Program-made: the position numbers and the translations under genes
Notes under the pieces: model-generated
Told to the model about the DNA's origin: nothing
The model's database searches: none
The model's input: only the letters and a program-made list of their open reading frames with translations
NCBI GenBank assembly: GCA_021790795.1
Contig: JAJYFU010000011.1
Span: forward strand, 1-49,123
Length of the DNA stretch: 49,123 nucleotides
Origin: Pseudomonadota bacterium
Lineage (GTDB): Bacteria; Pseudomonadota; Gammaproteobacteria; Steroidobacterales; Steroidobacteraceae
Reading direction: 5' to 3'
Shown: positions 4,704-28,668 of the stretch, one piece after another
Position numbering within the stretch: the first letter of the stretch is position 1
Layout: the number at the start of each line of letters is the position of its first letter

Positions 4704-4727
4704 GACCGTTGGCGTGCGCGGCGCGGA

Positions 4728-13568: not shown

Positions 13569-13796
13569 TCAATTCTTGCGGCGCAGTACAAACCGATAGA
13601 TCTTGCCGTCGCTGCTCGATTCGACGAGCTCTGTGCCGGTGGTGTTGCAGAAGGCCTGGAAGTCCTTGACCGAGCCCGGATCGGTTGCGAGCACCTCGAG
13701 GGTGCCGCCGGGTTGCATGCCTTGCAGGGCTTTCTTGGCCCGCAGGATGGGCAGAGGACAGTTGAGGCCCTTGGCATCGAGAGTCTGATTGGCCAT
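13569..13796 (-). CDS. tusA: TusA-family sulfur carrier (second copy)
   Basis: A 75-residue TusA with the canonical N-terminus TLDAKGLNCPLPILRAKKAL; Cys13 of CPLP is the persulfide carrier. The rest (VLATDPGSVKDFQAFCNTTG) matches the family, including the DPG-S-x-x-D segment. ATG at 13796 was chosen; a TTG 12 bases earlier is less likely. It starts 27 bases downstream of dsrE2. The tusA-dsrE2 pair recurs in sulfur oxidisers, where the proteins exchange sulfur before sHdr or Dsr. Confidence 0.94.
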   Translation of the reverse strand: MANQTLDAKGLNCPLPILRAKKALQGMQPGGTLEVLATDPGSVKDFQAFCNTTGTELVESSSDGKIYRFVLRRKN

Positions 13797-13823
13797 GGTG
13801 CGTCCCAAAGAGATTTCCGGACT

Positions 13824-14336
13824 TCAGATGAACAAGTTGATATCCGATTGTGTCGCGACCTCGATGTAGGTCGCGGCGCCGCCGAGCTCGGGTCCCTCGA
13901 TCATGTCCACGAGCGTGTATTCGAACAGGTCCATGGTCATCTGGCAGGCGATCATGCGTACACCGGCCTCGATGGCGATCGAGCGCAGATCGGTGATGGA
14001 GGCGACCCCCTTCTTCTTCATCAGATTCCTCATCATGCGACCGGCGGCGGCGTCGACCCCCGGAATCATGCTGGCGATGTTGGGCATGCCCATGTGCTTG
14101 CCGGCGAACGGCATCTTCATGGCGGGATTGCCCAGCGGCGTCAAGTTGAGATCGAGATCCTTCAACAGCAGAGGCAGACCGTAGAAGGTGAAGAACATCG
14201 TGACGTTGACGTCCATCGCGGCGGCGGTGGTCGCCAGGATGAAGGGTGGGTATGCCCAATCGAGCGTGCCCTTGGTCACGATGATTGACATGCGTTTGGC
14301 GGTGGAACGCGGGATGCTGTCGGCTGTCGCGGCCAT
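13824..14336 (-). CDS. dsrE2: DsrE2-family membrane-associated sulfurtransferase
   Basis: A 170-residue DsrE/DsrF/DsrH-like protein of the DsrE2 type. The candidate persulfide Cys is Cys131 in RMIACQMTMDLF, and it is the only Cys. Hydrophobic segments around residues 31-58 (PPFILATTAAAMDVNVTMFF...) give the likely membrane association typical of DsrE2, and a Met/Lys-rich loop (GKHMGMPNIASMIPG) is also characteristic. It starts a minus-strand group with tusA, fadL and osmC, divergent from the deacetylase/lipoate operon, and shares an AT-rich promoter region with it. The AAGCAATTACT motif at 14392 lies 56 bases upstream. Confidence 0.93.
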   Translation of the reverse strand: MAATADSIPRSTAKRMSIIVTKGTLDWAYPPFILATTAAAMDVNVTMFFTFYGLPLLLKDLDLNLTPLGNPAMKMPFAGKHMGMPNIASMIPGVDAAAGRMMRNLMKKKGVASITDLRSIAIEAGVRMIACQMTMDLFEYTLVDMIEGPELGGAATYIEVATQSDINLFI

Positions 14337-14480: not shown

Positions 14481-15602
14481 ATGCGATCGAGCCGTTCGGC
14501 GGTGCTCATCGGCGGAATATCCGCTGACACGGCGGGTTTCGGCTCGGGACATCCTCTGGCAATTCCACGCGTGGCGACGGTGCTCGCGCTGTGTCGCGCG
14601 CTCGGGTGGATTGCGGCCGGTGAGCTGCGTGACTGTCCGCGTGCTTCCGCGCGGCAGCTCCGGGAGTTCCACAGCCCCGAGTACATCGCGGCGCTGCGCG
14701 CCGCGGAGATTGCGGGGATCGCCACGATCGAAGAGCGCGAGCGTTTCGGTATCGGAACGCGTGAGAATCCGCTGTTTCCCGGGTTGTTTGCCAGGGCCGC
14801 GGCGACGGTTGGAGGCGCAATGCTGGCGGCGGAGCTCGCGCTCGAGGGACATGTCGTGTTTCACCCGGCCGGTGGCACGCACCACGGCCGGCCGGCGCGC
14901 GCGAGCGGCTTCTGTTATTTCAACGATCCGGTGTTCGCGCTGCGCCGGCTGGCCGCGCGCGGCTTGTCCCGCATCCTGTACATTGACCTCGATGCCCATC
15001 ATTGCGACGGAGTTCAGAATGCGCTGCAAGACGATGCCCGCATGCACACCGTTTCGATTCACGAGGCCGGGCGCTGGCCGTACACCGGCGGCGCCGAGGA
15101 CCGCGGCGGCGGACGCTCGGTCAACTTCCCGGTGCCCAAAGGATTCCATGACGGGGAATTGCGCTTCGTGATGGAAGCCGCTGTGCTGCCGTACGCGCGG
15201 CGCCTGCGGCCGGAGGCGGTGGTGATCACCTGCGGTACCGATGCGCTCAGCGGTGATCCGCTGTGCGGTCTCGCCCTGAGCAACGGCGCGCTGTGGACGG
15301 CCGTGCAGGAGCTGGTCGAAGCGGCGCCGGCCGCGGTCGTGCTCGGCGGTGGCGGCTACAATCCGTGGACGGTGGCGCGCTGCTGGACGGGCTTGTGGGG
15401 AAAGTTGAGCGGCCGGCGGCTGCCGCGGCGGTTGCCGGCTGCTGCCGAGCGCATTCTGGCCGGGCTGTCGTGCGATCTGATCGACGATGAGGCGATCGAC
15501 CCGTCATGGCAGCGGACTCTCGCGGATCCGCCGCGCGACGCTCCGGTCCGCCAGGCGGTGATGGATCTGGTGCACCGGGCCGGCGTGGAGCGCGCCGCAT
15601 GA
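14481..15602 (+). CDS. Zn-dependent histone-deacetylase-like enzyme in the lipoate operon
   Basis: A 373-residue member of the arginase/deacetylase fold (class I/II HDAC, AcuC/HDLP type) that hydrolyses acyl-amides on lysine or polyamines. All catalytic elements are present: the His134-His135 pair in GGTHHG, zinc ligands Asp171 and His173 in DLDAHH, Asp254 in CGTDALSGDPL, and the transition-state Tyr293 in GGGGYNP. It therefore looks active. Its stop overlaps the lipS1 start by four bases (ATGA), so it is translationally coupled to lipoate assembly. That link suggests removal of an acyl group from a lysine, perhaps on LbpA or the ligase, but the substrate is unknown. The ATG at 14481 starts the conserved region; a weak GTG lies further upstream. 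Confidence 0.88.
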   Translation: MRSSRSAVLIGGISADTAGFGSGHPLAIPRVATVLALCRALGWIAAGELRDCPRASARQLREFHSPEYIAALRAAEIAGIATIEERERFGIGTRENPLFPGLFARAAATVGGAMLAAELALEGHVVFHPAGGTHHGRPARASGFCYFNDPVFALRRLAARGLSRILYIDLDAHHCDGVQNALQDDARMHTVSIHEAGRWPYTGGAEDRGGGRSVNFPVPKGFHDGELRFVMEAAVLPYARRLRPEAVVITCGTDALSGDPLCGLALSNGALWTAVQELVEAAPAAVVLGGGGYNPWTVARCWTGLWGKLSGRRLPRRLPAAAERILAGLSCDLIDDEAIDPSWQRTLADPPRDAPVRQAVMDLVHRAGVERAA

Positions 15603-16663
15603 GCTGGCTGGAGAAACTGATGGCGATCGAGGAGCTCGACGAGGCGCCCCTGGACGCCGAGCTCGTCGCGCAGCTCGAGCGGGCGGGCGCGGGGGTGGTC
15701 TCCCGGCCGGTGCGCTTTGCAACACCCACGTTCAAGGACTACGCCAGTACCGAGCTGCGCGGTTGCTCGAAGAACAGCTTCCCGGCTTTTTCGATCACCG
15801 GCGGTGCGTGCGGCCTGAACTGCGAGCACTGCCGGGCCAAGATCCTCGAGCCGATGCTGCCGGCCACGACACCGCAGATGCTCGAGCGCACGGTGCGCGA
15901 GCTGATAGCGCGTCAGGGCCTGCAGGGGTTCCTGCTTTCCGGCGGCTCCAACCGGCGCAACGAGATTTCGTATGCACGGTTCTACCCGGTGATCGAGCGG
16001 TTGAAGCGCGATCATCCGGATCTGCGCATCGCGATCCATACGGCGCTCACGGACCGCGCGGGCGCCCGCGCCATGGAGGCCGCCGGCATCGATACGGCGA
16101 TGATGGATGTGATCGGCGCGGAGGCGACCATCCGCGAGGTGTACCACCTGGAGCGGACCGTGGCGGATTTCGAGGCGACGCTCGAGGCGTTGTGCGCCAC
16201 GTCCATGGAGGTAACGCCGCATATCGTCATCGGTTTGCATTTCGGCGCGGTGCTGGGCGAGCCGGCGGCGCTGGACATCGTCGGCAGACACCCCGTGAAG
16301 GCGCTGGTGCTGGTGGTCGTCATGCCGTTCTACGCCACGCCGGGAACGTTCGCGGTGCCCGATACCGGCGCGGTCGGCCGGCTGTTTGTCGAGGCGCGCG
16401 CGCGCCTTCCGCACCGCAGCGTTCTGCTCGGATGCGCCCGGCCGCCGGGCATGCACAAGCGCGTCACCGACACCTATGCCGTGTTGGCTGGACTCGACGG
16501 CATCGCGTTTCCGGCCGACGGCGTGGCGGCGGTCGCCACGGCGATCGGCCGGCCCTTCGAGCAGCAGCACGCCTGCTGCTCGATCAAGCTCGGAGGAGCC
16601 GCGGTGACCGGCGCCCGCGCCCATTGCGGTGCGGGCGCGGAGCCGGCGGGAGTTTCCGCATGA
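15599..16663 (+). CDS. lipS1: LipS1: radical SAM sulfur-insertion enzyme of alternative lipoate assembly
   Basis: A 354-residue radical SAM protein. The AdoMet cluster is Cys71, Cys75 and Cys78 in GACGLNCEHC (CX3CX2C), followed by GGSNRR and other barrel elements. Downstream Cys in LLGCARPPG and HACCSIKL may bind an auxiliary cluster. In the sLpl pathway LipS1 and LipS2 together insert the two sulfurs into octanoyl-carrier to give lipoate; they replace LipA. It is identified by order (deacetylase, LipS1, LipS2, sLpl) and by linkage to sHdr/LbpA. ATG at 15599 overlaps the previous stop, and the start of lipS2 overlaps its own stop. Confidence 0.92.
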   Translation: MSWLEKLMAIEELDEAPLDAELVAQLERAGAGVVSRPVRFATPTFKDYASTELRGCSKNSFPAFSITGGACGLNCEHCRAKILEPMLPATTPQMLERTVRELIARQGLQGFLLSGGSNRRNEISYARFYPVIERLKRDHPDLRIAIHTALTDRAGARAMEAAGIDTAMMDVIGAEATIREVYHLERTVADFEATLEALCATSMEVTPHIVIGLHFGAVLGEPAALDIVGRHPVKALVLVVVMPFYATPGTFAVPDTGAVGRLFVEARARLPHRSVLLGCARPPGMHKRVTDTYAVLAGLDGIAFPADGVAAVATAIGRPFEQQHACCSIKLGGAAVTGARAHCGAGAEPAGVSA

Positions 16664-17919
16664 GTTGCCGCACCCTGCCGCAGCGCCCAACGGGCGGCGC
16701 GTCGGGCGGAGATTTCAACGCGTTCGAGACCATGGAGCCGCGCGCGCCGGTGCAAACACCGCCGCAGCGGCGCAATGGCGCGCCGGTCAAGGCGGCTGAT
16801 CTGCGGCCGAGCGGCGTCTATCTGCCCAACGACAATGTGCTGACGCCGCACATGCGCTCGCCGGAATACGTGCAGATCTCCACCGCCGCGGCGATGACCC
16901 TCGGACTCATGCCTGGACGCATGCATCGCTGCGAGTGCACTCGGTGTCTGAACCTGCTGTTGACCTATCCGGAGGGTTGTCGCGCCAACTGCGCGTACTG
17001 CGGATTGGCGCGTCATCGTGAAGCCGAACGGGATTATGCGGACCGCAACTTCATCCGGGTCGACTGGCCGGCGGTGCCCGTCGAGCAGATGGTGGAGATC
17101 GTGGCCCGAGACGGCGCGGCGAGTCCGTTCCACCGCATGTGCATCTCGATGATCACACACCCGCGTTCCGATGCGGATACGGTGAGCGTGCTGAGGGCGT
17201 GGACGCGGCGCATCGATCCGGGGGTCATACCGGTGTCGATATTGTCCAACCCGACCACGATGAGCCGCGCCGACGTGGTGCGGCTGCGGGAGCTCGGCGC
17301 CGACATATTCACGGTCGCGCTCGACGCGGCGACTCCGGCGATCTTCGAGCGTACCCGCGGCAAAGGCGTGCAATCTCCGCACAAATGGAGCAAGTACTGG
17401 GAAATCCTGCATGCGGCGCGCGAGGTGTTCGGACCGCAGAAGTTCGGTGCGCACATCATCATCGGCATGGGCGAGACGGAGCGCGAGGCGCTCGAGCTGG
17501 TGCAGCAGTTGGTGGACCTCGGCGGCCACAGCCACATGTTCTGCTTCTTCCCGGAGCAGGGCTCGCTGATGGATCACCTGCCGCCGACGCCCCGGGATCA
17601 GTGGCGGCGGGTGCAACTCGCCCGCTATCTGATCGATTACGCATCGGTCCGTCTCGAGCAGATGCGCTTCGATGCGCTCGGCCGGGTCGTGGACTTCGGT
17701 CTGCCCCGCGAGGAGCTCGAGCGCGTCATCGATGCCGGCGTGGCTTTCCGGACCTCGGGTTGCCCCGGCAAATTTCGCGACGACGTTTCCGCGTGCGACC
17801 GGCCCTACGGGGACTCGCCGCCACACGATATCGCGAGCTATCCGTTCGCGCCCAATCGTGCCGACCTGCGCCGGATCCGCCGCCAGCTGCGTATTCCGGT
17901 GGTGCGGGACCAGCGATGA
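16660..17919 (+). CDS. lipS2: LipS2: second radical SAM enzyme of alternative lipoate assembly
   Basis: A 419-residue radical SAM protein partnered with LipS1. The AdoMet cluster motif is Cys107, Cys111, Cys114 in GCRANCAYCG. A separate CECTRC (Cys91, 93, 96) just before it may hold the auxiliary cluster that is sacrificed for sulfur in lipoyl synthases. A later RTSGCPGKFRDDVSACDRP near the C-terminus is probably also ligand-bearing. The first ~45 residues are low-complexity and poorly conserved, so an internal start is possible. ATG at 16660 overlaps lipS1, and TGA overlaps sLpl by the same ATGA arrangement. Confidence 0.92.
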   Translation: MSCRTLPQRPTGGASGGDFNAFETMEPRAPVQTPPQRRNGAPVKAADLRPSGVYLPNDNVLTPHMRSPEYVQISTAAAMTLGLMPGRMHRCECTRCLNLLLTYPEGCRANCAYCGLARHREAERDYADRNFIRVDWPAVPVEQMVEIVARDGAASPFHRMCISMITHPRSDADTVSVLRAWTRRIDPGVIPVSILSNPTTMSRADVVRLRELGADIFTVALDAATPAIFERTRGKGVQSPHKWSKYWEILHAAREVFGPQKFGAHIIIGMGETEREALELVQQLVDLGGHSHMFCFFPEQGSLMDHLPPTPRDQWRRVQLARYLIDYASVRLEQMRFDALGRVVDFGLPREELERVIDAGVAFRTSGCPGKFRDDVSACDRPYGDSPPHDIASYPFAPNRADLRRIRRQLRIPVVRDQR

Positions 17920-19004
17920 GCCGCGTCTTTCGGGTGCTCGATGCCGGCCTGCGAGCCGGCAGGCTCAACATTGCGCTCGACCAGGCCATGCTCGAGCTGC
18001 ATCAGACGGGACGGCTGGCCGATTCTGTGCGCTTCATCCACTTTCAGCCGAGCGCGCTCCTCGGACGCCACCAGTCGCTGAGCGCGGAGATCGATGTCGA
18101 CTACTGCCGGCAGCGCGGCATCGAAGTCGGCCGGCGCATCACCGGCGGCGGGGCGATCTATCTCGATCCGGGCCAGCTCGGCTGGGCGCTGGTGTTCGGC
18201 CGGGGCGCGCTCGGTGGCCCCTCGCTCGACGAGATGGCCCGGGCAGTCTGCGAGGCCGCTGCCGCGGGGCTCAGCCGATTCGGCATCGAAGTCCGCTTCC
18301 GGCCGCGCAACGATTTGGAGGTCGAGGGGCGCAAGCTCGGCGGAACCGGCGGGTTCTTCGACGGCGATACGCTGCTGTACCAGGGAACAGTGCTCGTCGA
18401 GCTCGATACCACCAGCCTGCTGGGCGCGCTGCGCGTGCCACGGGCCAAGATCGTTCGGCACGGCCTCGACTCGGCGGCACAGCGGGTGGTGAGTCTGCGC
18501 GAGCTGCTGGGCGCGCGGACGCCCACCATCGGGCAGGTTCAGCAGGCCCTGCTCGACGGCTTTTGCGAGCGGCTGGGCATCGAGTTCCAGCCGGCCGAGG
18601 CCGACTCGCATGCCGCCGTGCTGCAGCTGGGGCGTGAGTTGCACGCACGATGGATCGGCACGGAGGAGTTCGTCGCCGAGATCGACGGGCCGCCGCGCGG
18701 CGCGGCGGTCTCGGTGGGAACCTGCGCCGGCGCGGGCGGGACGATCACGGCGTATTTGCGCCGTGAGGGGCCCGAGGGCCGCCGTATCGGCCAGGTACTG
18801 ATCAGCGGGGACTTCTTCGTGGCGCCGCCGCGGCTCGTGTTGGACCTGGAGAGCCGCCTGCGGGGCATCGAGATCGAGTCCGTCGGCGAGACGATCGAGC
18901 GGTTCTTCCTGGAGCATCCCGCCAGCACCTTGTCGGTCGGCGCGGCGGACTTCAAACGCGCGATCGAGACGGCGTTGTCGGCAACGGCGCACGCGCCGGC
19001 CTGA
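17916..19004 (+). CDS. Lipoate:protein ligase sLpl(AB) of the sHdr lipoate pathway
   Basis: A 362-residue protein with an LplA-type ligase domain (about 1-245) and an LplB-like accessory domain fused at the C-terminus, the sLpl(AB) architecture. Ligase signatures are RRITGGGAIYLDPGQLGW (RRxxGGG, residues 73-79) and RNDLEVEGRKLGGTGG with the invariant Lys140. The enzyme adenylates octanoate or lipoate and attaches it to a carrier lysine; the expected partner is LbpA at 26699. It overlaps lipS2 by four bases. Canonical lplA/lipB enzymes for SucB are not in this window. Confidence 0.92.
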   Translation: MSRVFRVLDAGLRAGRLNIALDQAMLELHQTGRLADSVRFIHFQPSALLGRHQSLSAEIDVDYCRQRGIEVGRRITGGGAIYLDPGQLGWALVFGRGALGGPSLDEMARAVCEAAAAGLSRFGIEVRFRPRNDLEVEGRKLGGTGGFFDGDTLLYQGTVLVELDTTSLLGALRVPRAKIVRHGLDSAAQRVVSLRELLGARTPTIGQVQQALLDGFCERLGIEFQPAEADSHAAVLQLGRELHARWIGTEEFVAEIDGPPRGAAVSVGTCAGAGGTITAYLRREGPEGRRIGQVLISGDFFVAPPRLVLDLESRLRGIEIESVGETIERFFLEHPASTLSVGAADFKRAIETALSATAHAPA

Positions 19005-19010
19005 CTGCTC

Positions 19011-19730
19011 ATGCGCGCTCTGCCCACCAAGCTGGCCGTGGTCCAGCACACCGCGGCGGAGTATCTCGGGTTGATCGAGGACCACCTGGAAATCCGCGGG
19101 ATCGGCTTTCGCTATTTCCGTCCGTTCACCGCCGGCGGCCGACTGCCGAGATTGGAGGAGACTTCCGCCGGACTGGTGCTGCTCGGCGGCGGCCCGTGGG
19201 GTATCGTGCCTGGCGTGGCCCGCCTGCCGTGGCTGGAGGCGGAGATCGAGCTCGCCGCCGCGGCGCTCGCGGCGTCGCGGCCGGTGATCGGATTCGGACT
19301 CGGCGCACAGATCCTGGCGTTGGCCGGCGGGGGCAGCCCGGCAGCGGGAAAGCTCATGCTCGATGTCGGTACCGCCACGCGCACGGTGGAGGGCGCCCTG
19401 GGAGGACTGTTGCCGCCGATCTATCCGTTGGTGCGCTACGGCCGGGACAGCGCGTCGCTCCCGGCCGGTGCCCGCGTGCTGGCCCGTGACGGGCAGGGCG
19501 GATGGGCACTTTTCCAGCTTGGCGAGCGCGCATTTGGATTCGCGGGTCATCCGGGCATCAAGTCGGCGATCGTGGAGGATCTGATCATGGAGTTTGCGGA
19601 AGCGCCGGACGAGACGGCCGCGGGCTTGGCCGCGTTACGCGCCGCCCAGGCGCAGATCGAGATTGCGCTTGCGGCTATCATGTCCGGCCTGGTGCGGATG
19701 CTGGATCTGATGTTGCCGCCGTCTCGCTAG
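19011..19730 (+). CDS. Class I glutamine-amidotransferase homologue lacking its catalytic Cys
   Basis: A 239-residue protein of the class I GATase fold, beginning six bases after sLpl. Fold landmarks include LGGGPWGIVPGVARLPWLEAEIE and the nucleophile-elbow region PVIGFGLGAQILAL. In active enzymes the elbow reads G-x-C-x-G-x-Q; here the Cys position is Gly96. The His-Pro-Glu of the triad appears as His180-Pro-Gly, so only His remains. It therefore should not hydrolyse glutamine by the usual route. The C-terminal helical extension (residues 200-239) is not part of a plain GATase domain. Amidotransferase-like genes are reported in such clusters; the role here is open (binding or scaffolding is inference). 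Confidence 0.82.
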   Translation: MRALPTKLAVVQHTAAEYLGLIEDHLEIRGIGFRYFRPFTAGGRLPRLEETSAGLVLLGGGPWGIVPGVARLPWLEAEIELAAAALAASRPVIGFGLGAQILALAGGGSPAAGKLMLDVGTATRTVEGALGGLLPPIYPLVRYGRDSASLPAGARVLARDGQGGWALFQLGERAFGFAGHPGIKSAIVEDLIMEFAEAPDETAAGLAALRAAQAQIEIALAAIMSGLVRMLDLMLPPSR

Positions 19731-20031
19731 TCTGTCGGATTTACGTTGCTTCGTCGGGGAGCGGCCCACGACGACATCACCCCGGGACGTGTTGTACGGT
19801 GACCCGCCCGCTGCGTAGTGACCGCCATGCACACGAATGGCGCTGGCGCGAGTGGTGTCAGCCGACCCCGCCGCATGGGGCGGGTGTGCCGCGCTGAAGC
19901 TCCGACGAGTCCGGCGCGCTCGCGGACCTTGACGCACGTCAATAAATAAGATATCACTAATATCAGATTGGGGGGTCGAGACGGTGTCTGTCTCGGCCGA
20001 AATGCGCGGCGCGGTCAATTGCGGACAACAC
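19731..20031. other. Intergenic region upstream of the sHdr operon
   Basis: No gene can be supported between the amidotransferase homologue and dsrE3C. The right end (about 19925-19975) is AT-rich and looks like the sHdr promoter, with an FNR-like dyad at 19929-19942 and a TAATAT hexamer at 19958-19963. Weak upstream in-frame starts for dsrE3C lie inside this region but lack ribosome binding sites. Confidence 0.55.
19929..19942. promoter_or_regulatory. Candidate CRP/FNR-family binding site upstream of sHdr
   Basis: TTGACGCACGTCAA is a perfect dyad TTGAC-N4-GTCAA, the shape bound by FNR/FixK/DNR-type regulators (TTGAY-N4-RTCAA). A possible -10 (TAATAT, 19958-19963) lies so that a start near 19970-19977 would put the dyad at about -35 to -41, as at activated promoters. 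The regulator is not in this window. Confidence 0.45.
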
Positions 20032-20409
20032 ATGGCATCGAAGCTGATCATCGTGATGGCCAACACCGATCCGCGCAACGGCGAGGAGATCGGCGCACCG
20101 ATCTTCCAGGCCACGGTCGCGGCGGCCATGGACTTCGAGGTCGAGGTCGTGTGCACGGCCACTGCCGGGAGACTGCTGAAGAAGGGCGTGGCCGAACGGC
20201 TGTTCGTCAAGGCCGGCTCGCCGAAGTCCGTGCTCGATTTCATCAAGGACGCGCACGAGGCGGGCGTGAAGTTTCTGTGCTGTTCCCCCAATCTAGACCT
20301 GTTTGACATGACTCAGGAGGACCTGATTCCCGAGTGCGGTGGCATCGTCGGCGGTGCCTACCTGATCGAGCGCGTCATGGACGACGAATACCGCGTGCTC
20401 ACCTACTGA
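20032..20409 (+). CDS. dsrE3C: DsrE3C sulfurtransferase of the sHdr system
   Basis: A 125-residue DsrE-fold protein (SKLIIVMANTDPRNGEE, then GAPIFQATVAAAMDFEVEV) of the DsrE3 type that accompanies shdr clusters. Adjacent Cys83 and Cys84 in GVKFLCCSPNLDLF mark the active site; Cys84 is the position reported as essential in the Hyphomicrobium protein. It exchanges sulfur with TusA, feeding sHdr. I chose the ATG at 20032, which starts the conserved MASKLI; earlier in-frame starts lack support. It is the first gene of the operon, 15 bases before hdrC1. Confidence 0.93.
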   Translation: MASKLIIVMANTDPRNGEEIGAPIFQATVAAAMDFEVEVVCTATAGRLLKKGVAERLFVKAGSPKSVLDFIKDAHEAGVKFLCCSPNLDLFDMTQEDLIPECGGIVGGAYLIERVMDDEYRVLTY

Positions 20410-20424
20410 CGGCGGATTGCGGGC

Positions 20425-21171
20425 ATGACCCAAGAGCATGCGACGCGAGTGCAGGAGCACATCGGCGATCCGGTGTCCGCGCGCGCACCGCTCGAGCGGA
20501 CCAAGCTCGAGGAGATCTTCCAGGACATCCAGTCCGATCTCAGATTCGATCACCAGCTGAATGGCTGTCTCAACTGCGGCATCTGCACCGCGACCTGCCC
20601 CTCGGCCCACTACTACGACTACAGCCCGCGCGAGATCGTGCAGCTGCTGTGGACCGAGAACCTGGAAGGCATCTACGACGCCATGCAGGAGAAGATCTGG
20701 GCGTGCGCCCAGTGCTACACGTGCGCCGCGCGCTGCCCGTTCGGCAACTCCCCCGGTGGTCTGGTGATGCTGATGCGCGAAGTCGCGATCAAGCACGGCA
20801 TGGAATCGGCCAAGAACGTGCTGCGGCCGTTCAGTCGCGTGATGCTCAAGCTCATCTCGACCGGAAACCAGCTTTCTCCGGACATGATCAGCCGGGACGC
20901 CTTCCCGGACTGGGGACCTAACGTCTCGAAGGTGGACGCGCCGCTCGACACGCTGCGCAAAGCGATCCCGGTGCCCACCCTGCATACCACCAAGACGGCC
21001 TGGGAGGTCAATCTCAAGACGTCGGTGGAGCTGTACACGATCTGGGAGGAGACCGGGGTGACCAACAGTCTGAAGACGATCGATCCGAATCTGTTCGATG
21101 TGATTCAGGACATCATGGACGACAAGCGCGACGAGTACTCGGACTGGCAGGAAGCGCAGGGCGAGGACTGA
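20425..21171 (+). CDS. hdrC1: sHdrC1: iron-sulfur subunit of sulfur-oxidising Hdr-like complex
   Basis: A 248-residue HdrC-type electron-transfer subunit with two [4Fe-4S] motifs: CLNCGICTATCP (Cys48, 51, 54, 58) and CAQCYTCAARCP (Cys94, 97, 100, 104). Methanogen HdrC has the same pair but is shorter; the ~110-residue C-terminal extension after residue 140 is typical of sHdrC1. It should link sHdrA and sHdrB1 in the cytoplasmic complex that oxidises carrier-bound sulfur to sulfite. The gene order from 20425 to 26257 (C1-B1-A-hyp-C2-B2) is diagnostic. Confidence 0.95.
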   Translation: MTQEHATRVQEHIGDPVSARAPLERTKLEEIFQDIQSDLRFDHQLNGCLNCGICTATCPSAHYYDYSPREIVQLLWTENLEGIYDAMQEKIWACAQCYTCAARCPFGNSPGGLVMLMREVAIKHGMESAKNVLRPFSRVMLKLISTGNQLSPDMISRDAFPDWGPNVSKVDAPLDTLRKAIPVPTLHTTKTAWEVNLKTSVELYTIWEETGVTNSLKTIDPNLFDVIQDIMDDKRDEYSDWQEAQGED

Positions 21172-21234
21172 GGAACCGGCCTCGGGCCCCGAGGCGCTGC
21201 CGTCCGCCGATTCACGACCACAGAGGTGCCAGCC

Positions 21235-22605
21235 ATGACGTCAGATGAGAAACCAACGGGCGGCCGTTTCACCGGCCACGGCCCGGAATGGCGCAGTTCC
21301 GGCCTCGCCGCCCAGGATGCGCAGGCCGCCACCGCTTGGGTCGAGCAGATCATCGACCGGCGCTCGATGCTGACCGGCAAGGATCGGGTCGCCGATGTCC
21401 GCGACGCCATGTGGGAGCTCGAGAAGGACGGGCAGATCGTGGTTCACCGGGTGACCGAGGCGCACAAGCCGATCGTGGTCCGGACACTGTACGGCTGGGA
21501 GAAGAAGATCCCGACGGTGCGGCTGTGGCATCACAAGTCGTGCGGGCAATGCGGCAACATTCCCGGGTATCCGGCCTCGCTGCTGTGGTTGATGAACCGG
21601 CTCGGCACGGAATATCTCGACGAGACGGATCAGACTTCGTGCACCGCCTGGAACTATCACGGCTCGGGAATCGGCAACATCGAGAGCCTTGCCGCGGTGT
21701 TTCTGCGCAATTTCCATCAGGCGTACGTCGCCGCGAAGGCGCAGGGACTGCCGGATGGCTACTACTATCCGCTGGTGCACTGCGGCACCTCGTTCGGCAA
21801 TTACAAGGAAGTGCGCGGCTACCTGCTGCAGTCGGCGAAACTGCGCGAGCGGGTCCGGCAGATTCTCGGCAAGCTCGGCCGGCTGGTCGACGGCAAGCTG
21901 CTGATTCCCGAGGAAATCGTGCACTACTCCGAGTGGCTGCACGTCATGCGCGACGACATCCGGAATCTGCAGACGATCGATTGCAGCGGGATCCGCGCCA
22001 CCATTCATCCGGCCTGCCACGTGTACAAGATGGTGCCGGAGGACGTCGTGTATGACGACAAAGTGCTGGAGGGAAACCGGGTTGCCGTCTCGACCGGACT
22101 GATGCAGACCCTCGGCGCCCAGGTGATCGACTACAAGACGTGGTACGACTGCTGCGGCTTCGGTTTCCGCCACATCATCTCCGAGCGGGAGTTCACCCGC
22201 TCCTTCGCGATCGACCGCAAGATCCGGGTGGCGGTCGAGGAGGCCCACGCCGACGTGATGATCGGCCACGACACCGGCTGCATCACCACGCTCGACAAGA
22301 ACCAGTGGATCAGCAAGGCCGACGGCCGCCCGGTGAGCCTGCCGGTGCTGGCGGACTGCCAGTTCGCGGCGCTGGTCTGCGGCGCGCATCCGTACAAGAT
22401 CGTGCAGTCGCATTGGCACGCCTCGCCGACCGAGACGCTCATGGAGAAGCTCGGTATCGATTGGCAGGCGCGCAAGGCGGAGTTCGAAGAGTATTTGAAG
22501 GAGGTCGCCGCCGGGCGCATCGAGACGCTGTACGACCCGAAGCGCAAGATCACCTCCGGTCCGGGCTTCAAGCCCGATGGGCAAACGGCGGGTCGGGCCG
22601 GATGA
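21235..22605 (+). CDS. hdrB1: sHdrB1: non-canonical CCG-type subunit
   Basis: A 456-residue HdrB-type subunit proposed to hold the sulfur-converting active site. Classical HdrB has two CX(31-39)CCX(35-36)CXXC motifs; here both deviate. The first region has Cys103, Cys106, Cys136 and Cys183 but no CC pair. The second has Cys261, Cys306-Cys307 and Cys349, followed by Ile-Thr-Thr, so the last Cys is missing. This pattern is expected of sHdrB1 and suggests an altered cluster with open iron sites. ATG at 21235 was chosen over an upstream GTG because of GAGG spacing. The stop overlaps hdrA by four bases. Confidence 0.94.
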   Translation: MTSDEKPTGGRFTGHGPEWRSSGLAAQDAQAATAWVEQIIDRRSMLTGKDRVADVRDAMWELEKDGQIVVHRVTEAHKPIVVRTLYGWEKKIPTVRLWHHKSCGQCGNIPGYPASLLWLMNRLGTEYLDETDQTSCTAWNYHGSGIGNIESLAAVFLRNFHQAYVAAKAQGLPDGYYYPLVHCGTSFGNYKEVRGYLLQSAKLRERVRQILGKLGRLVDGKLLIPEEIVHYSEWLHVMRDDIRNLQTIDCSGIRATIHPACHVYKMVPEDVVYDDKVLEGNRVAVSTGLMQTLGAQVIDYKTWYDCCGFGFRHIISEREFTRSFAIDRKIRVAVEEAHADVMIGHDTGCITTLDKNQWISKADGRPVSLPVLADCQFAALVCGAHPYKIVQSHWHASPTETLMEKLGIDWQARKAEFEEYLKEVAAGRIETLYDPKRKITSGPGFKPDGQTAGRAG

Positions 22606-23648
22606 GCCGACCGGTGCTGATCGTCGGCGGGGGGCCGGCGGGACTGGCGGCGGCGAGCGCGCTGACGGCCGTCGGCCAACAGGTGGTGCTGGTCGAGAAG
22701 GCCGGGCGCCTCGGCGGGGCGCCGATCCTGTCCGGCTACGCCAAACTGGTGCCCTCGGGTGAGTGGGCCAAGGACGCAATCGGCGGCATGGTCGGCCGGG
22801 TACAGACGCAGCCTTTGGCGCAGGTGCGACTGAGCACCACCGTGGCGGCCTTGAAGGGCGGCCCGGGTGATTTCACCGCAGAGCTCTCCGACGGCGCCGC
22901 GGTGCGGGCCGCCGCCGTCATCCTGTGCACCGGCTTCACCCATTTCGACTCGCTCAACAAGCCCGAGTGGGGCTTCGGCACCTATCCGGACGTCGTGACG
23001 ACGGTGCAGGTGGAACAGATGATTTCCGCGGGCACGGGCGTGCGTTGCCCGTCGGATGGGCGCGCGCCGAAGCGCGTGGCGATCCTGCTGTGCGTCGGGT
23101 CGCGCGATCGACAGATCGGCCGTCCCTGGTGCTCGAAGATCTGCTGCACCGTCTCGGCGAACATCGCCATGGAGATTCGTGAGCAGTTGCCGGACTGCCA
23201 CGTCTATATCTATTACATGGACATCCGGACCTTTGGCCTGTACGAGACGAAGTACTACTGGCGCAGCCAGGAGGAATTCAAGATCAAGTACATCAAGGCG
23301 CGCATCGCGGAGGTCACCTCGGACGGAGAGAAGCTCATCGTGAAGGGCGAAGACACCCTGGTGAAGCGGCCGATCACGATTCCCTTCGATTTGGTCGTGC
23401 ATGCGATCGGCATGGACCCGAACGTGGACAACAAGTCGATCGCGACGGTCTTCGGCGTGGCGCTCGAGCCCAACGGGTACCTGGAACGCGGAAATTCCTA
23501 TGGCAATACGGCGGAGACGTCGCGCCCCGGAGTGTTCGTGGCCGGCGCCGCGGCGGGACCGGAGACCATTGACGATTCGATTGCACAGGCGTACGCGGCG
23601 GCGGCACGGGCGCTCTCGCTGGTGCGCCCGGCCGAGGCGAGCGCCTGA
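22602..23648 (+). CDS. hdrA: sHdrA: FAD subunit of sulfur-oxidising Hdr-like complex
   Basis: A 348-residue flavoprotein, far shorter than methanogen HdrA. The Rossmann motif is VLIVGGGPAGLAAASAL at the N-terminus; the FAD/HdrA signature CVGSRDRQIGRPWCSKICC in mid-protein carries four Cys that can hold a [4Fe-4S] cluster. The MDIRTFGLYETKYYWRSQEE segment and C-terminal GVFVAGAAAGPETIDDSIAQA are typical of HdrA. It lacks the ferredoxin insertions used for flavin bifurcation in archaeal HdrA, as other sHdrA proteins do. It overlaps hdrB1 by ATGA. Confidence 0.95.
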   Translation: MSRPVLIVGGGPAGLAAASALTAVGQQVVLVEKAGRLGGAPILSGYAKLVPSGEWAKDAIGGMVGRVQTQPLAQVRLSTTVAALKGGPGDFTAELSDGAAVRAAAVILCTGFTHFDSLNKPEWGFGTYPDVVTTVQVEQMISAGTGVRCPSDGRAPKRVAILLCVGSRDRQIGRPWCSKICCTVSANIAMEIREQLPDCHVYIYYMDIRTFGLYETKYYWRSQEEFKIKYIKARIAEVTSDGEKLIVKGEDTLVKRPITIPFDLVVHAIGMDPNVDNKSIATVFGVALEPNGYLERGNSYGNTAETSRPGVFVAGAAAGPETIDDSIAQAYAAAARALSLVRPAEASA

Positions 23649-23657
23649 AGGCGAAGC

Positions 23658-24521
23658 GTGGCGCGTTCCCCGATACGACTTTCCGCGGCGCCGCCGCCGA
23701 TCCGGCTGGAGCTGAGCGGCCCGCGGCTCGCCGACGGCCTGGCTCGGCTGGCCGTGAGCTGCGAGGCGAGCGGTGGAGTCGAGCAGTATGTCCGGGCCCT
23801 CGAACTGAAGAGCGACTTGTTCCGCAGCGTCCTCGGCGAGGATGGCGCGGCTGCCGCCGGACTCGAGCCGGAAACGCTGCGGATTCTGCTGCCGTTCATG
23901 CCGACCGTGCGCAGACGGATCGCGCCCTGGATGGAACGTCCGGCCTTCGACGGACTGAAGGCGGATATCGGCCGGCTGCTGGACGCTCTGCGGGACAACA
24001 GCCGTGTCGATGAGGGGCTCGCGGCGTTCGGGGATGGGTTCTGCGCGGCCGAGCGCCCTCGGTGGGTGCGGGATCTGGGCGCGGAACTGCTCCACCAGCT
24101 GGCGCCGGAGCGTTTCCCGATGATGACCCGATGGGTCTGGGACCGCGCGGCGAATACCGGAGTGTTGCGCGAGATCTGGTTCGGCGGCGAAGACGGCGCG
24201 CATATCGACGTGCCGGACAGCTGCGCGGCGTTTCTGACGCTGCGCGAGGAACTCAGCGGCTTTCTCGCCAGCAAAGGCGTGTTCCGCGACGTCATCCGCT
24301 ACGTCGATCTTCTGTGCGCACAGATCTACGCCCAATACATCTGTGCCCAGGGTGGCAGCTACTTGCGCGTGGATTTCAGCGCCGAGGAAGATCCCTCGCA
24401 ATATACCCGGCGGCTGCTCGGCCTCGATGCCGTCGGGAGCGGCATCCACCTGTCGCATTGCGACGGCGCGCTCGGCGATAACGCCGCACGGCGAAGCGAA
24501 CCGGCTCGAACGCCGGATTGA
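23658..24521 (+). CDS. Unknown protein encoded between hdrA and hdrC2 (sHdr 'hyp')
   Basis: A 287-residue soluble protein in the conserved hyp slot of hdrC1B1A-hyp-hdrC2B2 clusters. I do not recognise a domain. It is mainly helical and lacks a Cys-cluster motif, signal peptide or membrane segment. It is rich in Arg/Leu, with notable stretches VRDLGAELLHQLAPERFPMMTRWVW and ICAQGGSYLRVDFSAEEDPSQYTRRLLGLDAVGSG. The latter segment, with conserved aromatic and acidic residues, is the best candidate for an interaction or active surface. It begins with GTG at 23658 after a GAAGG, nine bases from hdrA, and ends six bases before hdrC2. Its position implies a role in the complex. Confidence 0.85.
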   Translation: MARSPIRLSAAPPPIRLELSGPRLADGLARLAVSCEASGGVEQYVRALELKSDLFRSVLGEDGAAAAGLEPETLRILLPFMPTVRRRIAPWMERPAFDGLKADIGRLLDALRDNSRVDEGLAAFGDGFCAAERPRWVRDLGAELLHQLAPERFPMMTRWVWDRAANTGVLREIWFGGEDGAHIDVPDSCAAFLTLREELSGFLASKGVFRDVIRYVDLLCAQIYAQYICAQGGSYLRVDFSAEEDPSQYTRRLLGLDAVGSGIHLSHCDGALGDNAARRSEPARTPD

Positions 24522-24527
24522 GCCCAC

Positions 24528-25307
24528 ATGCCCATTCATGAACAATCGCTCATCCGCCCGGAAGATCTGCGCACGCACGATCAGCTGGTGGTCGACGGTG
24601 TCGACGTATCCGGCCATTGGAGCACTTTTATCCAGTCGCGCGTGGTGTCCGACTACAACGAGGAGCTGCAGGAGCAGATCGCCTCGCTTCCCGGCGGCGA
24701 GTACATTCACCGCTGCTGGCAGTGCGGCTCGTGCACGAACGCCTGCACCGTCAATGCGGTCAATCCGGACTTCAACCCGCGCTTCTGGATCTATCTGGTG
24801 CGCATGGGGCTCGAGTCGGAGCTGCTGCGGGACAAGGAGATCATCTGGCAGTGCGTGTCGTGCAACAAATGCACCTATGCCTGTCCCCGCGATGTGTTTC
24901 CGGAGGGCGTGATGAAGGCGCTCAGCCACTGGCTCGAGCTCAAGGGCCACACGCGCAAGTCCCCCTCGACGGTATTCGACGAGGAGTTCACCGAACAGAT
25001 CATCCGGCGCGGCCGGATCGAGGAGGGGCGCCTCATGAGGCGGTTCTTCGCCCGCACCGGACAGAGGCTCAGGCAGGATTGGCTCGTGGAGATGGCGAGG
25101 CGCCTGCTGCGGCATCTGCCTGTGGGCCTGTTGACACGGATGGGTCTGTCGAGTCTGCGCGCGCCGCGAGCGCGGGGCTGGGCTGGCGCGCGCGACGCCC
25201 TGAGCGAATACGTGCACGAGCAGAACGCCGGGCACCGTCGCGCGCTGGGCTTGGCCGATTTGATCGAGACCGCGCGTCAGGATGCTTCCGGCGCATCGGG
25301 CGGTTAG
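24528..25307 (+). CDS. hdrC2: sHdrC2: second HdrC-type iron-sulfur subunit
   Basis: A 259-residue electron-transfer subunit with two [4Fe-4S] sites: Cys63, 66, 69, 73 in CWQCGSCTNACT and Cys109, 112, 115, 119 in CVSCNKCTYACP. In the first site the usual Pro after the fourth Cys is Thr. Both are preceded by a ~60-residue N-terminal extension (IRPEDLRTHDQLVVDGVDV...). The C-terminal ~100 residues are Arg-rich and possibly membrane-associating (LLRHLPVGLLTRMGLSSL). It pairs with HdrB2 next door and presumably links the complex to its electron acceptor. Confidence 0.95.
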   Translation: MPIHEQSLIRPEDLRTHDQLVVDGVDVSGHWSTFIQSRVVSDYNEELQEQIASLPGGEYIHRCWQCGSCTNACTVNAVNPDFNPRFWIYLVRMGLESELLRDKEIIWQCVSCNKCTYACPRDVFPEGVMKALSHWLELKGHTRKSPSTVFDEEFTEQIIRRGRIEEGRLMRRFFARTGQRLRQDWLVEMARRLLRHLPVGLLTRMGLSSLRAPRARGWAGARDALSEYVHEQNAGHRRALGLADLIETARQDASGASGG

Positions 25308-25318
25308 GAGGCGCAGCC

Positions 25319-26257
25319 ATGTCCGAGAACAAAGCCGATAAATACCGCCGCGTCGCCTATTATCCCGGTTGCGCGCTCGAGGGCACGGGACATGCCTACA
25401 ACCGCTCGACCCGGCAACTGGGCAAGGCGCTGGGCCTGGATCTGGTCGAGGTTCCCGACTGGAACTGCTGCGGTGCGATGGAGGCGAAGAACGTCGACCC
25501 GAAGGTTCAGACCTACCTTTCGGCACGGGTCCTGTCGCTGACCGCCAACCGGCTGGGCATGGACGTGGTCATGGCGCCGTGCAACGGCTGCTACCACAAC
25601 CTCAAGAAGGCCGAGCATGACCTTGCGAACGATCCCGGCAGCGCCGAAGTGGTCGAGCGCCTGGCGCGCAAAGCGGGCGATCCGGCCTATCGGCCGGGAG
25701 ACGTCGAGACCGTGCACGCACTGGAGTGGCTCAAGGCCGCGATAGGCGAAGACGAGTTGAGACGCAGAATGCGCGGCGGACTGAAGGGTCTGAAGGTCGC
25801 CAATTACTACGGCTGCATGTATACGCGGCCGAGGCATATCTTTCCGGAGAAGGACTCGGGGCCGGGAAGCGAATCAACCGCCAAGCCTCACTTCATGGAC
25901 GATCTGCTCGCGGCCGCCGGCGCCGAGAATGTCGAGTTTCCGCTGAAAACCGCCTGTTGCGGCGGCGCGCATACCCTCTCGGACAGCGACATGTCGACGC
26001 GGCTGGTGCTGAACATCCTGCAAGCCGCCGAGGCCGCCGGAGCCGAGGTGATCGCCACGGAGTGCCCGACCTGCCATTCGGGGCTCGAGCTGCACCAGGT
26101 GCGGGCGGAGAAGAAACTCGGCGTGCGGACCGGCGTCAAGATCATCTATTTCACGCAGCTCCTGGGGCTCGCGCTCGGTCTGTCGCCGCGCAAGGTGGGT
26201 CTGCAGGAGAACGTATCGGACGCGCGCGAGGTGCTGGCCGCCCGGGGTGTGACATGA
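25319..26257 (+). CDS. hdrB2: sHdrB2: canonical CCG-domain subunit
   Basis: A 312-residue HdrB protein with two full CCG motifs: Cys18-X31-Cys50Cys51-X36-Cys88-X2-Cys91, and Cys166-X46-Cys213Cys214-X34-Cys249-X2-Cys252. These bind the paired non-cubane [4Fe-4S] clusters of HdrB. In contrast to HdrB1, nothing is missing, so HdrB2 is the subunit expected to perform disulfide chemistry, plausibly with the lipoyl group of LbpA. AGGAGG lies seven bases upstream of the ATG. It overlaps the next gene by four bases. Confidence 0.95.
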   Translation: MSENKADKYRRVAYYPGCALEGTGHAYNRSTRQLGKALGLDLVEVPDWNCCGAMEAKNVDPKVQTYLSARVLSLTANRLGMDVVMAPCNGCYHNLKKAEHDLANDPGSAEVVERLARKAGDPAYRPGDVETVHALEWLKAAIGEDELRRRMRGGLKGLKVANYYGCMYTRPRHIFPEKDSGPGSESTAKPHFMDDLLAAAGAENVEFPLKTACCGGAHTLSDSDMSTRLVLNILQAAEAAGAEVIATECPTCHSGLELHQVRAEKKLGVRTGVKIIYFTQLLGLALGLSPRKVGLQENVSDAREVLAARGVT

Positions 26258-26670
26258 GGAGTCTGGCACAGATCGAGCGGTGCCTGGCGCAATTGCTGGA
26301 GAAGGGACCGCAGGCCGGCGATGCCGGCACGGTGCTCGACTTGGCGGAGGAGGTGCTCGAGCACTGGATATCCGCCCGGGGCGGGCGGCCCACGGGCGGG
26401 CGCCGCGAGGGATTCCGGCTGCTCGCGCTGCATCATCAGGGCGCGCGCGGCGAGCCGAGCTTCAATGCCTGCCGCGAGAGCTGCCGCGAGCTGGTCTATC
26501 ATTACAATCTGCTAACATTGGAGCCGGGCGATGCCCGCGGCGGTGCCCGGGCGCTGATGATGGCGCGGCTGGCGAACCATCTGTACCTGTTCGTCGCCGG
26601 TAAATTACAAATGGAGCGCCTCGGGGAGTTCTGCTGCGCATCGCGTCCGCTGCGCACTGCGGCGGAGTGA
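26254..26670 (+). CDS. Small unknown protein between hdrB2 and lbpA
   Basis: A 138-residue protein whose ATG overlaps the hdrB2 stop. I do not recognise a family. It is predicted helical and cytoplasmic, with no signal peptide. Five Cys stand out: Cys10, Cys73, Cys77 (CRESC) and the CC pair near the C-terminus in GEFCCAS. The pattern could be redox-active or metal-binding but fits no named motif. It lies 28 bases before lbpA. Tight coupling implies a role in the HdrB2/LbpA step, which is inference. Confidence 0.82.
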   Translation: MRSLAQIERCLAQLLEKGPQAGDAGTVLDLAEEVLEHWISARGGRPTGGRREGFRLLALHHQGARGEPSFNACRESCRELVYHYNLLTLEPGDARGGARALMMARLANHLYLFVAGKLQMERLGEFCCASRPLRTAAE

Positions 26671-26698: not shown

Positions 26699-27142
26699 AT
26701 GGCCAAGGTGCGCGGGTGCAATCTGCCGGACAACTTGCTGTACGACGTGCCGAACCACATCTGGTACCAGGAACTCGACGACGGCAGCGTCAAGGTGGGC
26801 ATGACCGCCGTTGCGACGGCGATGGCCGGGCGGCTGGTGGCCTATACGCCCAAGGCCGTCGGCAAGGAGGTCAAGGCCGGCAAGTCCTGCGCGACCGTGG
26901 AGTCGGGCAAGTGGGTGGGGCCGGCGAAGCTGGCTTGCGCCGGCACCGTGGCCACGGTCAACGAGGCGATGGTGGCCACCCCTGCGATTGCCAACGAGGA
27001 TCCTTATGAGAAGGGCTGGCTGCTGGTGATCAAGCCGCTCGATTGGGGCACGGTCAGGCCGACGCTGGTGGCGGGAGTCGACGTCGCGGGTCCCTACGAG
27101 GCGAAGATGACCGCCGATGGCTTTGCGGGGTGCGGCGGATGA
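26699..27142 (+). CDS. lbpA: LbpA: lipoate-binding sulfur carrier protein (GcvH-like)
   Basis: A 147-residue protein of the GcvH/lipoyl-domain fold that serves the sHdr complex as a sulfur carrier through its lipoyl arm. The modified lysine is Lys71 in ATVESGKWVGPAK, the position of the GcvH lipoyl-lysine. The N-terminal CNLPDNLLYDVPNHIWYQEL and the DPYEKGWLLVIKP segment match LbpA rather than glycine-cleavage H protein. AGAGGGG precedes the ATG. It is flanked by hdrB2 and by the regulator, with the lipoate genes on both sides of the operon. Confidence 0.95.
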   Translation: MAKVRGCNLPDNLLYDVPNHIWYQELDDGSVKVGMTAVATAMAGRLVAYTPKAVGKEVKAGKSCATVESGKWVGPAKLACAGTVATVNEAMVATPAIANEDPYEKGWLLVIKPLDWGTVRPTLVAGVDVAGPYEAKMTADGFAGCGG

Positions 27143-27519: not shown

Positions 27520-28668
27520 ATGTTTCCCGCCGGGGCGTCCCCGAGGGTGGATCGAGCCGCGGACGCACAGCCTGAGGAGCGGCCGGATCTGCTGGTCGTG
27601 GGACTCGGTCCGGCGGGCGCCAGCGCCGCCGCCGCCGCGGCGTCCGCGGGTTGTCGAGTGCTCGCGGTGGACCGGCGCCGGCGCATCGGTGAGCCGGTCC
27701 AATGCGCCGAGTTCGTGTCGAGCGCATTCAGCATGGAGGAGTTTTCCTGGGAGGGGATCGCGACGCAGCGGATCGTGCGCATGGTCACGGCGGTGCAGGA
27801 GGAGCGGCCGCGGGTGAGCGAGGACTTTCGGGGCCGCATGATCTGCCGCAGCGCGTTCGATCAGGCGCTGGCGCGCCGGGCTGCGGCCGCAGGGGCGCAT
27901 ATCCGACTCGGCGTGGCGGTCTGCGAGGTCCGCGCCGATGGGGGTGTGCGCCTCTCGAGCGGCGCGCTCATCCGCCCGCGCGCGTTGGTCGGTGCCGACG
28001 GACCCCGGTCGCGGGTGGGTGCGGCGATCGGCCAATCGAATCGTCAGCTCGTGGCGGCCCGGCAGTTTACCGTGGGCCTGCGCCAACCCTACGAGGCCAC
28101 GGACATCTTTCTCAGTCCCGCCTATCCAGGCGGGTATGCGTGGCTGTTCCCCAAGGGAAGCGCTGCGAATCTCGGGGTCGGCGTCGATTTTCACCGCCGT
28201 GATCGCCTCAAGCCGCTGTTGTGGGATCTGCACGCCCGTCTGGCCGCGAATGCGAGAGTGCAGGCGGCGCCTCCGTCGTCGACGACGGGGGGGTTGATCC
28301 CGGTTGGCGGTCGCCTGCGCGCCATCGGAGCGCTCGGCGCCGTCGCCGCGGTGTTGGCCGGCGATGCAGCCGGTCTGACCCATCCCGTGACGGGCGCCGG
28401 CATCGAGGCCGCGGTGTATTCCGGAGTCTTGGCCGGGCGAGCGGTCGCGAGCTGGCTCGCCGGGCACTGCAACGCACTGCGGGAGTACGAGAACGACCTG
28501 TCGGATCTGTACGATCCTGCATACGCGCGCGCGTTGCGGCGTCGGCGCGAGCTGCTCCGCGGGGGAGGCCCCGCCGCTGAAGCGTTGTGGCGTGGTTGGA
28601 TCGCGTCGCCGGAATACTGGGCGGATGCCGCTGGCCCGTCTCCAGACGCTGCGGCCCCGCCCGCGTAA
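27520..28668 (+). CDS. lipT: LipT: geranylgeranyl-reductase-like flavoprotein of lipoate assembly
   Basis: A 382-residue FAD-dependent oxidoreductase of the geranylgeranyl-reductase family, LipT in the sLpl lipoate pathway. FAD-binding DLLVVGLGPAGASAAAAAA lies near residue 24, the second flavin motif LVGADGPRSRVG near 160, and the third LAGDAAGLTHPVTGAGI near 285. It is thought to supply electrons to the radical SAM pair LipS1/LipS2; that role is inferred from family and linkage. It ends the operon, 18 bases after the regulator. Confidence 0.9.
   Translation: MFPAGASPRVDRAADAQPEERPDLLVVGLGPAGASAAAAAASAGCRVLAVDRRRRIGEPVQCAEFVSSAFSMEEFSWEGIATQRIVRMVTAVQEERPRVSEDFRGRMICRSAFDQALARRAAAAGAHIRLGVAVCEVRADGGVRLSSGALIRPRALVGADGPRSRVGAAIGQSNRQLVAARQFTVGLRQPYEATDIFLSPAYPGGYAWLFPKGSAANLGVGVDFHRRDRLKPLLWDLHARLAANARVQAAPPSSTTGGLIPVGGRLRAIGALGAVAAVLAGDAAGLTHPVTGAGIEAAVYSGVLAGRAVASWLAGHCNALREYENDLSDLYDPAYARALRRRRELLRGGGPAAEALWRGWIASPEYWADAAGPSPDAAAPPA

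Follow-up and report, generated by a model that had tools for sequence, protein, structure and literature searches.

The window, the whole stretch of 49,123 nucleotides analysed here, encodes an HDAC-fold zinc deacylase whose gene is coupled to lipS1 at the head of a run of lipoate assembly and sHdr genes, and this enzyme very probably works in the LipS1/LipS2/sLpl lipoate pathway that serves LbpA. Within the lipoate pathway a role as protein-lysine deacylase is favoured with some confidence, and octanoyl- or lipoyl-LbpA is put forward tentatively as its main substrate. The best explanation overall, an HDLP/AcuC-branch lysine deacylase that belongs to the sHdr lipoate-assembly pathway and acts on LbpA, is regarded as an evenly balanced proposition. 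The family assignment, the intact active site, the coupling to lipS1, the recurrent linkage to lip genes, the conserved Glu95 and the lack of a polyamine gatekeeper are all demonstrated at the level of sequence.

The Pfam profile PF00850 (Hist_deacetyl) matches the window protein with an E-value of 3.4e-67 (227 bits; cut-off 27.9), and given this strong match the open reading frame is not a chance one. The original prediction had described an HDAC-like protein that retains both His residues, all zinc ligands and the Tyr, with a stop codon overlapping the lipS1 start. Both points hold, with all six catalytic residues present in the window protein and the ATGA read at the junction (Table 1). Further ATGA overlaps join lipS1 to lipS2 (16660-16663) and lipS2 to sLpl (17916-17919). 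Counting from the HDAC gene, the order is lipS1, lipS2, sLpl, lipX-like, dsrE, shdrC1-B1-A, a hypothetical gene, shdrC2, shdrB2, a gene for a small protein, lbpA and the lipT-like gene. The dsrE2 gene upstream of the HDAC gene (13824-14336) runs in the opposite direction, and the HDAC gene is the first of the run. A FadL/TodX-type outer membrane protein, which may correspond to LipY, is encoded beside the lip operon (12148-13509, minus strand), and many of the best 80 loci described below likewise have such a protein upstream of the HDAC.

Table 1. Positions of the HDAC-fold gene, its substrate- and zinc-binding residues and the genes that follow it in the window
Feature	Position	Strand	Basis
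HDAC-fold Zn deacylase (HDLP/AcuC-type), 373 aa, opens lip-shdr run	14481..15602	+	PF00850
Glu95 codon, equivalent to HDAC8 Asp101 (substrate-backbone binder)	14763..14765	+	alignment
Thr133 (foot-pocket gate) and His134-His135	14877..14885	+	alignment
Asp171 and His173, Zn ligands	14991..14999	+	alignment
Asp254, Zn ligand	15240..15242	+	alignment
Leu261, gatekeeper place (HDAC10: Glu)	15261..15263	+	alignment; PMC5454378 (part of text)
Tyr293, catalytic, GGGGY motif	15357..15359	+	alignment
ATGA, HDAC stop and lipS1 start	15599..15602	+	sequence
lipS1, radical SAM lipoyl synthase part 1	15599..16663	+	NCBIfam NF053742 (LipS1), 188 bits, below cut-off of 230
lipS2, radical SAM lipoyl synthase part 2	16660..17919	+	NCBIfam NF053743 (LipS2), 188 bits, below cut-off of 270; protein scanned minus its last 25 residues
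sLpl(AB), lipoate/octanoate:protein ligase	17916..19004	+	PF21948 (LplA-B_cat), 145 bits
lipX-like glutamine amidotransferase	19011..19730	+	NCBIfam PRK07053, 74 bits, below cut-off of 250
DsrE-family sulfur carrier	19984..20409	+	Pfam
sHdr genes C1, B1, A, hypothetical, C2, B2	20425..26257	+	profile scans
Small protein between shdrB2 and lbpA; p136 homologue; start approximate	26254..26670	+	
LbpA, GcvH-like, presumed acyl-lysine carrier, site ESGKWVGP	26699..27142	+	GCV_H, 100 bits
lipT-like FAD oxidoreductase (geranylgeranyl-reductase family)	27520..28668	+	TIGR02032, 172 bits, above cut-off

The residues His134, His135, Asp171, His173, Asp254 and Tyr293 are invariant in 149/149 aligned HDACs, a set of 150 distinct proteins (identical proteins removed) minus the short L111. 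Together with the Pfam score above cut-off, the His-His pair, the Asp-His-Asp ligands and the Tyr place the window protein in the HDAC superfamily. The first HDAC-fold structure to be solved was that of HDLP from Aquifex aeolicus. This protein (PDB 1c3p/1c3r) is also the top solved-structure match of the window protein (248 bits over residues 8-367), followed by HDAC8 (163 bits). The HPLxIPRV, GG-x-HH and GGGGYxP motifs and a Glu at the place of HDAC8 Asp101 are common to HDLP and the window protein, whereas HDLP has Met at the gate (Thr in the window protein) and GGGGYHP (GGGGYNP in the window protein), both of which are traits of the gamII lineage considered below. According to the available part of PMC13325672, Asp101 of HDAC8 binds the substrate backbone. 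Glu occupies this place in the window protein, in 74/74 linked proteins (those with any lip gene match in the locus), in 11/11 proteins of the unlinked class 'nolinkA' and in 21/21 gamII proteins, i.e. in 107 distinct proteins.

The fold is common to polyamine deacetylases, and an acetylpolyamine amidohydrolase that lies in the operon by chance had been named as an alternative in the original prediction. This reading is highly improbable, and Leu261 and Glu95 both disfavour it. The gatekeeper place is Leu261 in all 107 proteins (window, linked, unlinked and gamII), and the Glu that marks the HDAC10 type in the accessible text of PMC5454378 is absent. Furthermore, the window protein retains the acid that binds the substrate backbone, an acid absent from the cluster 4 and 5 enzymes named in the portion of PMC11532494 that was available, and a polyamine substrate would leave the co-occurrence with lip genes unexplained.

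The foot-pocket motif of the window protein, AGGTHH/GGGGY, is of the open kind that the accessible part of PMC11532494 ties to longer acyl groups. Thr stands at the gate position in the window protein and in 73/74 linked proteins, and Met in 21/21 gamII proteins. The xGG-x-HH and GGGY motifs, with class I enzymes and HDLP as nearest relatives, agree with cluster 2 in the same partly available source, but the Leu of its xGGLHH motif is Thr in the window protein, which is accordingly filed as a variant of the HDLP/AcuC-type cluster 2, because Thr or Met replaces this Leu. Bacillus subtilis AcuC (cluster 2c) is, by its published description (PMC11532494, in part), likewise class I-like with xGGLHH and GGGY motifs, and has Leu rather than Thr at the gate and Asp at the backbone-binding place. 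AcuC is described there as a promiscuous acyl-lysine deacylase, the known target of which is acetyl-CoA synthetase; it takes acetyl, propionyl and crotonyl groups and, among the peptides tested, cleaved 'QPKKoct' best, where 'oct' is read as octanoyl. Class IV HDACs (HDAC11; VcHdaH) similarly have the open GG foot-pocket motif, with a Thr/Ser gate in clade A, and medium-chain acids have been found inside their pocket (PMC11532494 and PMC13325672, as far as available). Membership of clade A is rejected; Thr133 fits, but Glu95 lies where clade A has Gly, and the top matches of the window protein are instead HDLP and class I enzymes. In class IV clade B enzymes, deacylase activity fell to background once Thr was placed at the foot-pocket gate (PMC13325672, available text), a result that speaks against reading activity straight from motifs.

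A scan of GTDB contigs with the window protein provided 339 relatives, the best 80 of which were kept. With this neighbourhood survey, which the original prediction had called for, the association was found in several proteobacterial groups as well as in the window's own genus. A lipS1 match begins no more than 300 nt downstream on the same strand in 58/80 of these loci (best 80 of 339 relatives), where the possible lipS1 starts give a 4-nt overlap in 16, a 14-nt overlap in 9, a 1-nt overlap in 3 and none of these in 30. Eleven further loci of the best 80 contain lip or hdr genes, including five with lipS1 farther downstream, three with lipS1 elsewhere and three with other lip/hdr genes only. 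When thirteen loci without a lipS1 match were traced into their genomes, LipS1 was found in 8/13 and HdrB1 in three of the remaining five (G001, G004 and G012), with neither LipS1 nor HdrB1 detected only in G002 (L006) and G007 (L053). Lip or sHdr genes were thus detected, in the locus or the genome, for 78/80 nearest homologues (best 80 of 339), a count that treats L029, with a lipS1 fragment at its contig end, as linked, although it is labelled unlinked in the residue classes. Recurrent linkage to lipS1 and co-occurrence with it connect the gene to the lipoate assembly gene set (LipS1/S2/sLpl/LipT/LipX), a connection that is not universal. A chance association in one strain is rejected by this recurrent linkage and by the co-occurrence across genome samples. 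Two of the loci (L041 and L056) are titled Bordetella parapertussis; both are contigs of MAGs, carry lip genes (L056 sHdr genes too) and group with Burkholderiales loci, and the names look wrong.

The gene is also found outside the operon. The relatives L005-L008, with 71-75% identity to the window protein, do not adjoin lip genes (the contig of L008 ends soon after the gene) and are placed within the linked clade in the tree. In G003, lipS1 comes immediately after a divergent dsrE2, without an intervening HDAC gene, and sHdr genes follow in the operon as far as the sequence read extends (L175); the HDAC of this genome is retained at another place (L007). In H. denitrificans it is shdrR that precedes lipS1 (PMC10451225, available portion). 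The HDAC gene could be a passenger, its linkage inherited with the sHdr island and devoid of functional meaning; if such islands move as blocks, the linkages and counts are not independent, and G002 and G007 have the gene with neither LipS1 nor HdrB1 detected. This is nevertheless very unlikely, considering that the gene was retained after leaving the operon in G003, that the gamII HDAC co-occurs with LipS1 from a different cluster, and that the catalytic residues are all kept.

Co-occurrence was assessed at cut-offs of E <= 1e-30 for LipS1 and E <= 1e-60 for the HDAC, the latter fixed before the results. In a sample of 370 genomes belonging to the window's class (judged to be Gammaproteobacteria), LipS1 occurs in 30, the HDAC in 22 and both in 21 (window included). 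LipS1 is thus present in 21/22 HDAC genomes versus 9/348 others, for which the Fisher value of 3e-26 is only descriptive, because the genomes are related and not independent. The 22nd HDAC genome (G231) gave no LipS1 match, and lipS2 and sLpl share its HDAC contig (L136). The two genes are adjacent in two of the 21 genomes (G000 and G043), on the same contig within ~32 kb in nine, and farther apart or on other contigs in ten. The HDAC is absent from 9/30 LipS1 genomes of the class sample, and a looser search of these nine gave weaker HDAC matches in 6/9 (E 1e-27 to 1e-37); the five of these six that were read have Asp at place 95 and Leu at 133 and represent another type.

Among the 397 genomes of the phylum sample, LipS1 occurs in 8, the HDAC in 30 and both in 7, and the HDAC lies directly upstream of lipS1 in all six co-occurring genomes besides the window. 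LipS1 is missing in 23/30 HDAC genomes of this sample, in which lip-less relatives are common. LipS1 was found in ten of the 337 genomes sampled from the class that includes G732 (judged to be Alphaproteobacteria); 8/10 have a strong HDAC match, and a Glu95-type HDAC is present in 7/10 and absent in 3/10. The strong match of G974 is of a Gly95 type and lies away from the lip genes, and G795 has a Glu95-type HDAC, with Leu at the gate, on a contig other than that of lipS1. In the window's genus (25 genomes including the window), all four genomes with LipS1 also have the HDAC, a test that overlaps the best 80 loci, as L201/L003, L200/L010 and L199/L005 are likely the same MAGs. The two genes of G031 are split over two contig ends, and G021 (70% complete, same genus) has the HDAC without LipS1 and looks identical to the assembly of G001, which has HdrB1. 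No LipS1 match was obtained on plasmids at E 1e-30; HDAC relatives occur on four plasmids at E 1e-40, and the two that were read have Thr or Ser at place 95. These two, from Roseobacter and Thalassococcus plasmids (L178 and L179), are annotated as AcuC, with photosynthesis genes and a GNAT acetyltransferase nearby. The LipS1 matches in G005, G006, G008, G010, G011, G013 and others are flagged with one in-frame TGA, probably where the alignment overruns the true stop.

Thirteen relatives taken from the 23 HDAC genomes that are without LipS1 show Glu95 in 1/13, with Ser, Gly or Thr in the remainder. Similarly, where a genome has two copies of the family (G935, G1077 and G1013), Glu95 is found in the lipS1-proximal copy and Gly in the second. 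This pattern is one of few evolutionary events and not of independent trials.

The gamII proteins form a lineage more distant from the window protein and derive from LipS1 genomes of the window's class, and their HDAC gene co-occurs with lipS1 without adjoining it. In the larger tree the window clade, the LipS1-less relatives and gamII are separate from one another. The smaller tree groups gamII with Aquifex HDLP (bootstrap 99 / SH-aLRT 88), HDLP being long-branched and odd in its letter make-up, and a 97/82 branch divides the window lineage, gamII and HDLP from HDAC8 and the paralogues. The LipS1-less relatives stay together in the larger tree and are split in the smaller, which has four added rows. 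The gamII cluster, as seen in L146:6870-14957 and other loci, encodes an LplA-B_cat protein, the small proteins p131 and p136, a CbbQ/NorQ-type AAA ATPase, a VWA protein, the HDAC and an aldo/keto reductase, along with one small protein on the other strand. Across 20 gamII loci (L146 included; several end near the gene), those encoded near the HDAC include the aldo/keto reductase (15 loci), the VWA protein (CbbO-like; 12 loci), p136 (12 loci), the CbbQ-like ATPase (11 loci) and an LplA-B_cat protein besides sLpl (10 loci). In a single comparison, p136 is 31% identical over 111 residues (E 6e-16) to the protein encoded between shdrB2 and lbpA in the window, and through this homology the gamII HDAC cluster is connected to sHdr a second time. 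An LbpA, aq_402, is known from A. aeolicus (PMC6067878), and LipS1/S2 are present in Aquificota (PMC10332631), both according to the text available. The link between HDLP and sHdr is drawn from such partly accessible literature on Aquificota.

The pathway that equips LbpA with lipoate has been described recently and takes free octanoate as its starting point. The lipoyl-lysine site reads ESGKWVGP in the LbpA of the window and in the 14/14 other matches that cover it (L080, L082, L015, L140-L142, L147, L148, L162 and L170-L174), as against ESVK or ESTK in the five of 13 matched GcvH chains that were displayed. Since ESGKWVGP is also found in the LbpAs of five genomes without a window-type HDAC (L170-L174), the motif is permissive and not diagnostic. 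The target lysine of AcuC sits in a Gly-Lys motif as well, RSGKIMR in the available text of PMC11532494, and the resemblance between the LbpA and AcuC sites is suggestive only. Escherichia coli with a helper plasmid carrying lipS1-slpl-lipT-lipS2 (with lipY too in one passage) makes holo-LbpA without the HDAC (PMC10332631, accessible part). This, together with the 9/30 LipS1 genomes that have no HDAC, makes the enzyme dispensable for lipoylation.

A reaction may be envisaged for the HDAC in which the acylated lysine of LbpA (ES-G-K-WV) would enter the enzyme tunnel, and a Zn-activated water would free octanoate, lipoate or a wrong acyl group. As a result, wrongly acylated or stalled octanoyl-LbpA would be proofread, lipoate recycled or LbpA silenced. 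The chemistry of the zinc, the His-His pair and the Tyr is established for the family, with LbpA the putative substrate, and we know of no activity reported for any member of the lip-linked clade. The idea that a lysine deacylase operates in a lipoate operon is retained as the best reading, on the basis of the linkage, Leu261, Glu95 and the cleavage of QPKKoct by AcuC, whereas its more specific form, with a given acyl group and target protein, found no support.

The enzyme might instead be a deacetylase that keeps the pathway active, removing acetyl or short acyl groups from LbpA, sLpl or sHdr subunits with no removal of lipoate. The nearest characterised bacterial relatives are of the AcuC type, AcuC activates AcsA by deacetylation (PMC11532494, available portion), and the two plasmid-borne relatives annotated as AcuC have a GNAT acetyltransferase nearby. 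This is considered rather less probable, as an acetyltransferase was found in 0/20 window proteins scanned with Pfam, and an acyl group that the lip operon itself attaches accounts better for the gene's place there. Another possibility, which appears unlikely, is a salvage amidase that acts on GcvH, E2 subunits or lipoamides and supplies octanoate or lipoate to sLpl, which needs the free acid. This would fit a ligase-based pathway, but no direct sign points to GcvH or E2 as the substrate. Sirtuins are NAD-dependent and differ in fold from the HDACs, and a SIR2 protein is also encoded in the window genome. That this family includes known bacterial lipoamidases, which strip lipoyl from lipoylated proteins (PMC5596343, text available in part), speaks further against a salvage role for the HDAC.

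The association of the HDAC gene with the lip genes suggests that a dedicated eraser or proofreader may act on the lipoylation of a sulfur-oxidation protein. If correct, the zinc deacylase would add an NAD-free removal or proofreading step to the LbpA lipoate pathway, assign a role to a group of HDAC relatives in bacteria and place HDLP in a physiological context. A broader version is possible, though doubtful, in which LbpA lipoylation is reversible and the family comprises Zn-dependent delipoylases or de-octanoylases dedicated to the sulfur-oxidation carrier, with Aquifex HDLP as a member that is not histone- or acetyl-specific. No proofreading or removal step for the LbpA lipoate pathway was found in the literature examined. 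Among the matches listed, none tied an HDAC-fold enzyme to the lipoate or sHdr pathway (subscription papers and supplements lying outside the scope) and none used the term 'delipoylase'. Three reviews among the matches listed do mention delipoylation, lipoamidase, HDAC and bacteria in one text. In the portions of text available, deacetylase and histone terms are absent from PMC12423496, PMC10451225 and PMC6067878, histone and amidohydrolase from PMC10332631, acetylpolyamine from PMC12423496 and PMC6067878, and amidohydrolase and lipoamidase from PMC6067878.

Further sulfur genes are encoded on the minus strand of the window, in a block divergent from the lip operon. These include tusA (13569-13808) and a gene for a protein resembling type III sulfide:quinone reductase (9561-10694; 308 bits, below the cut-off of 525). 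Genes for an ATP sulfurylase and an AprA-like flavoprotein lie side by side (3507-6560, minus strand), an arrangement that suggests sulfite oxidation through APS.
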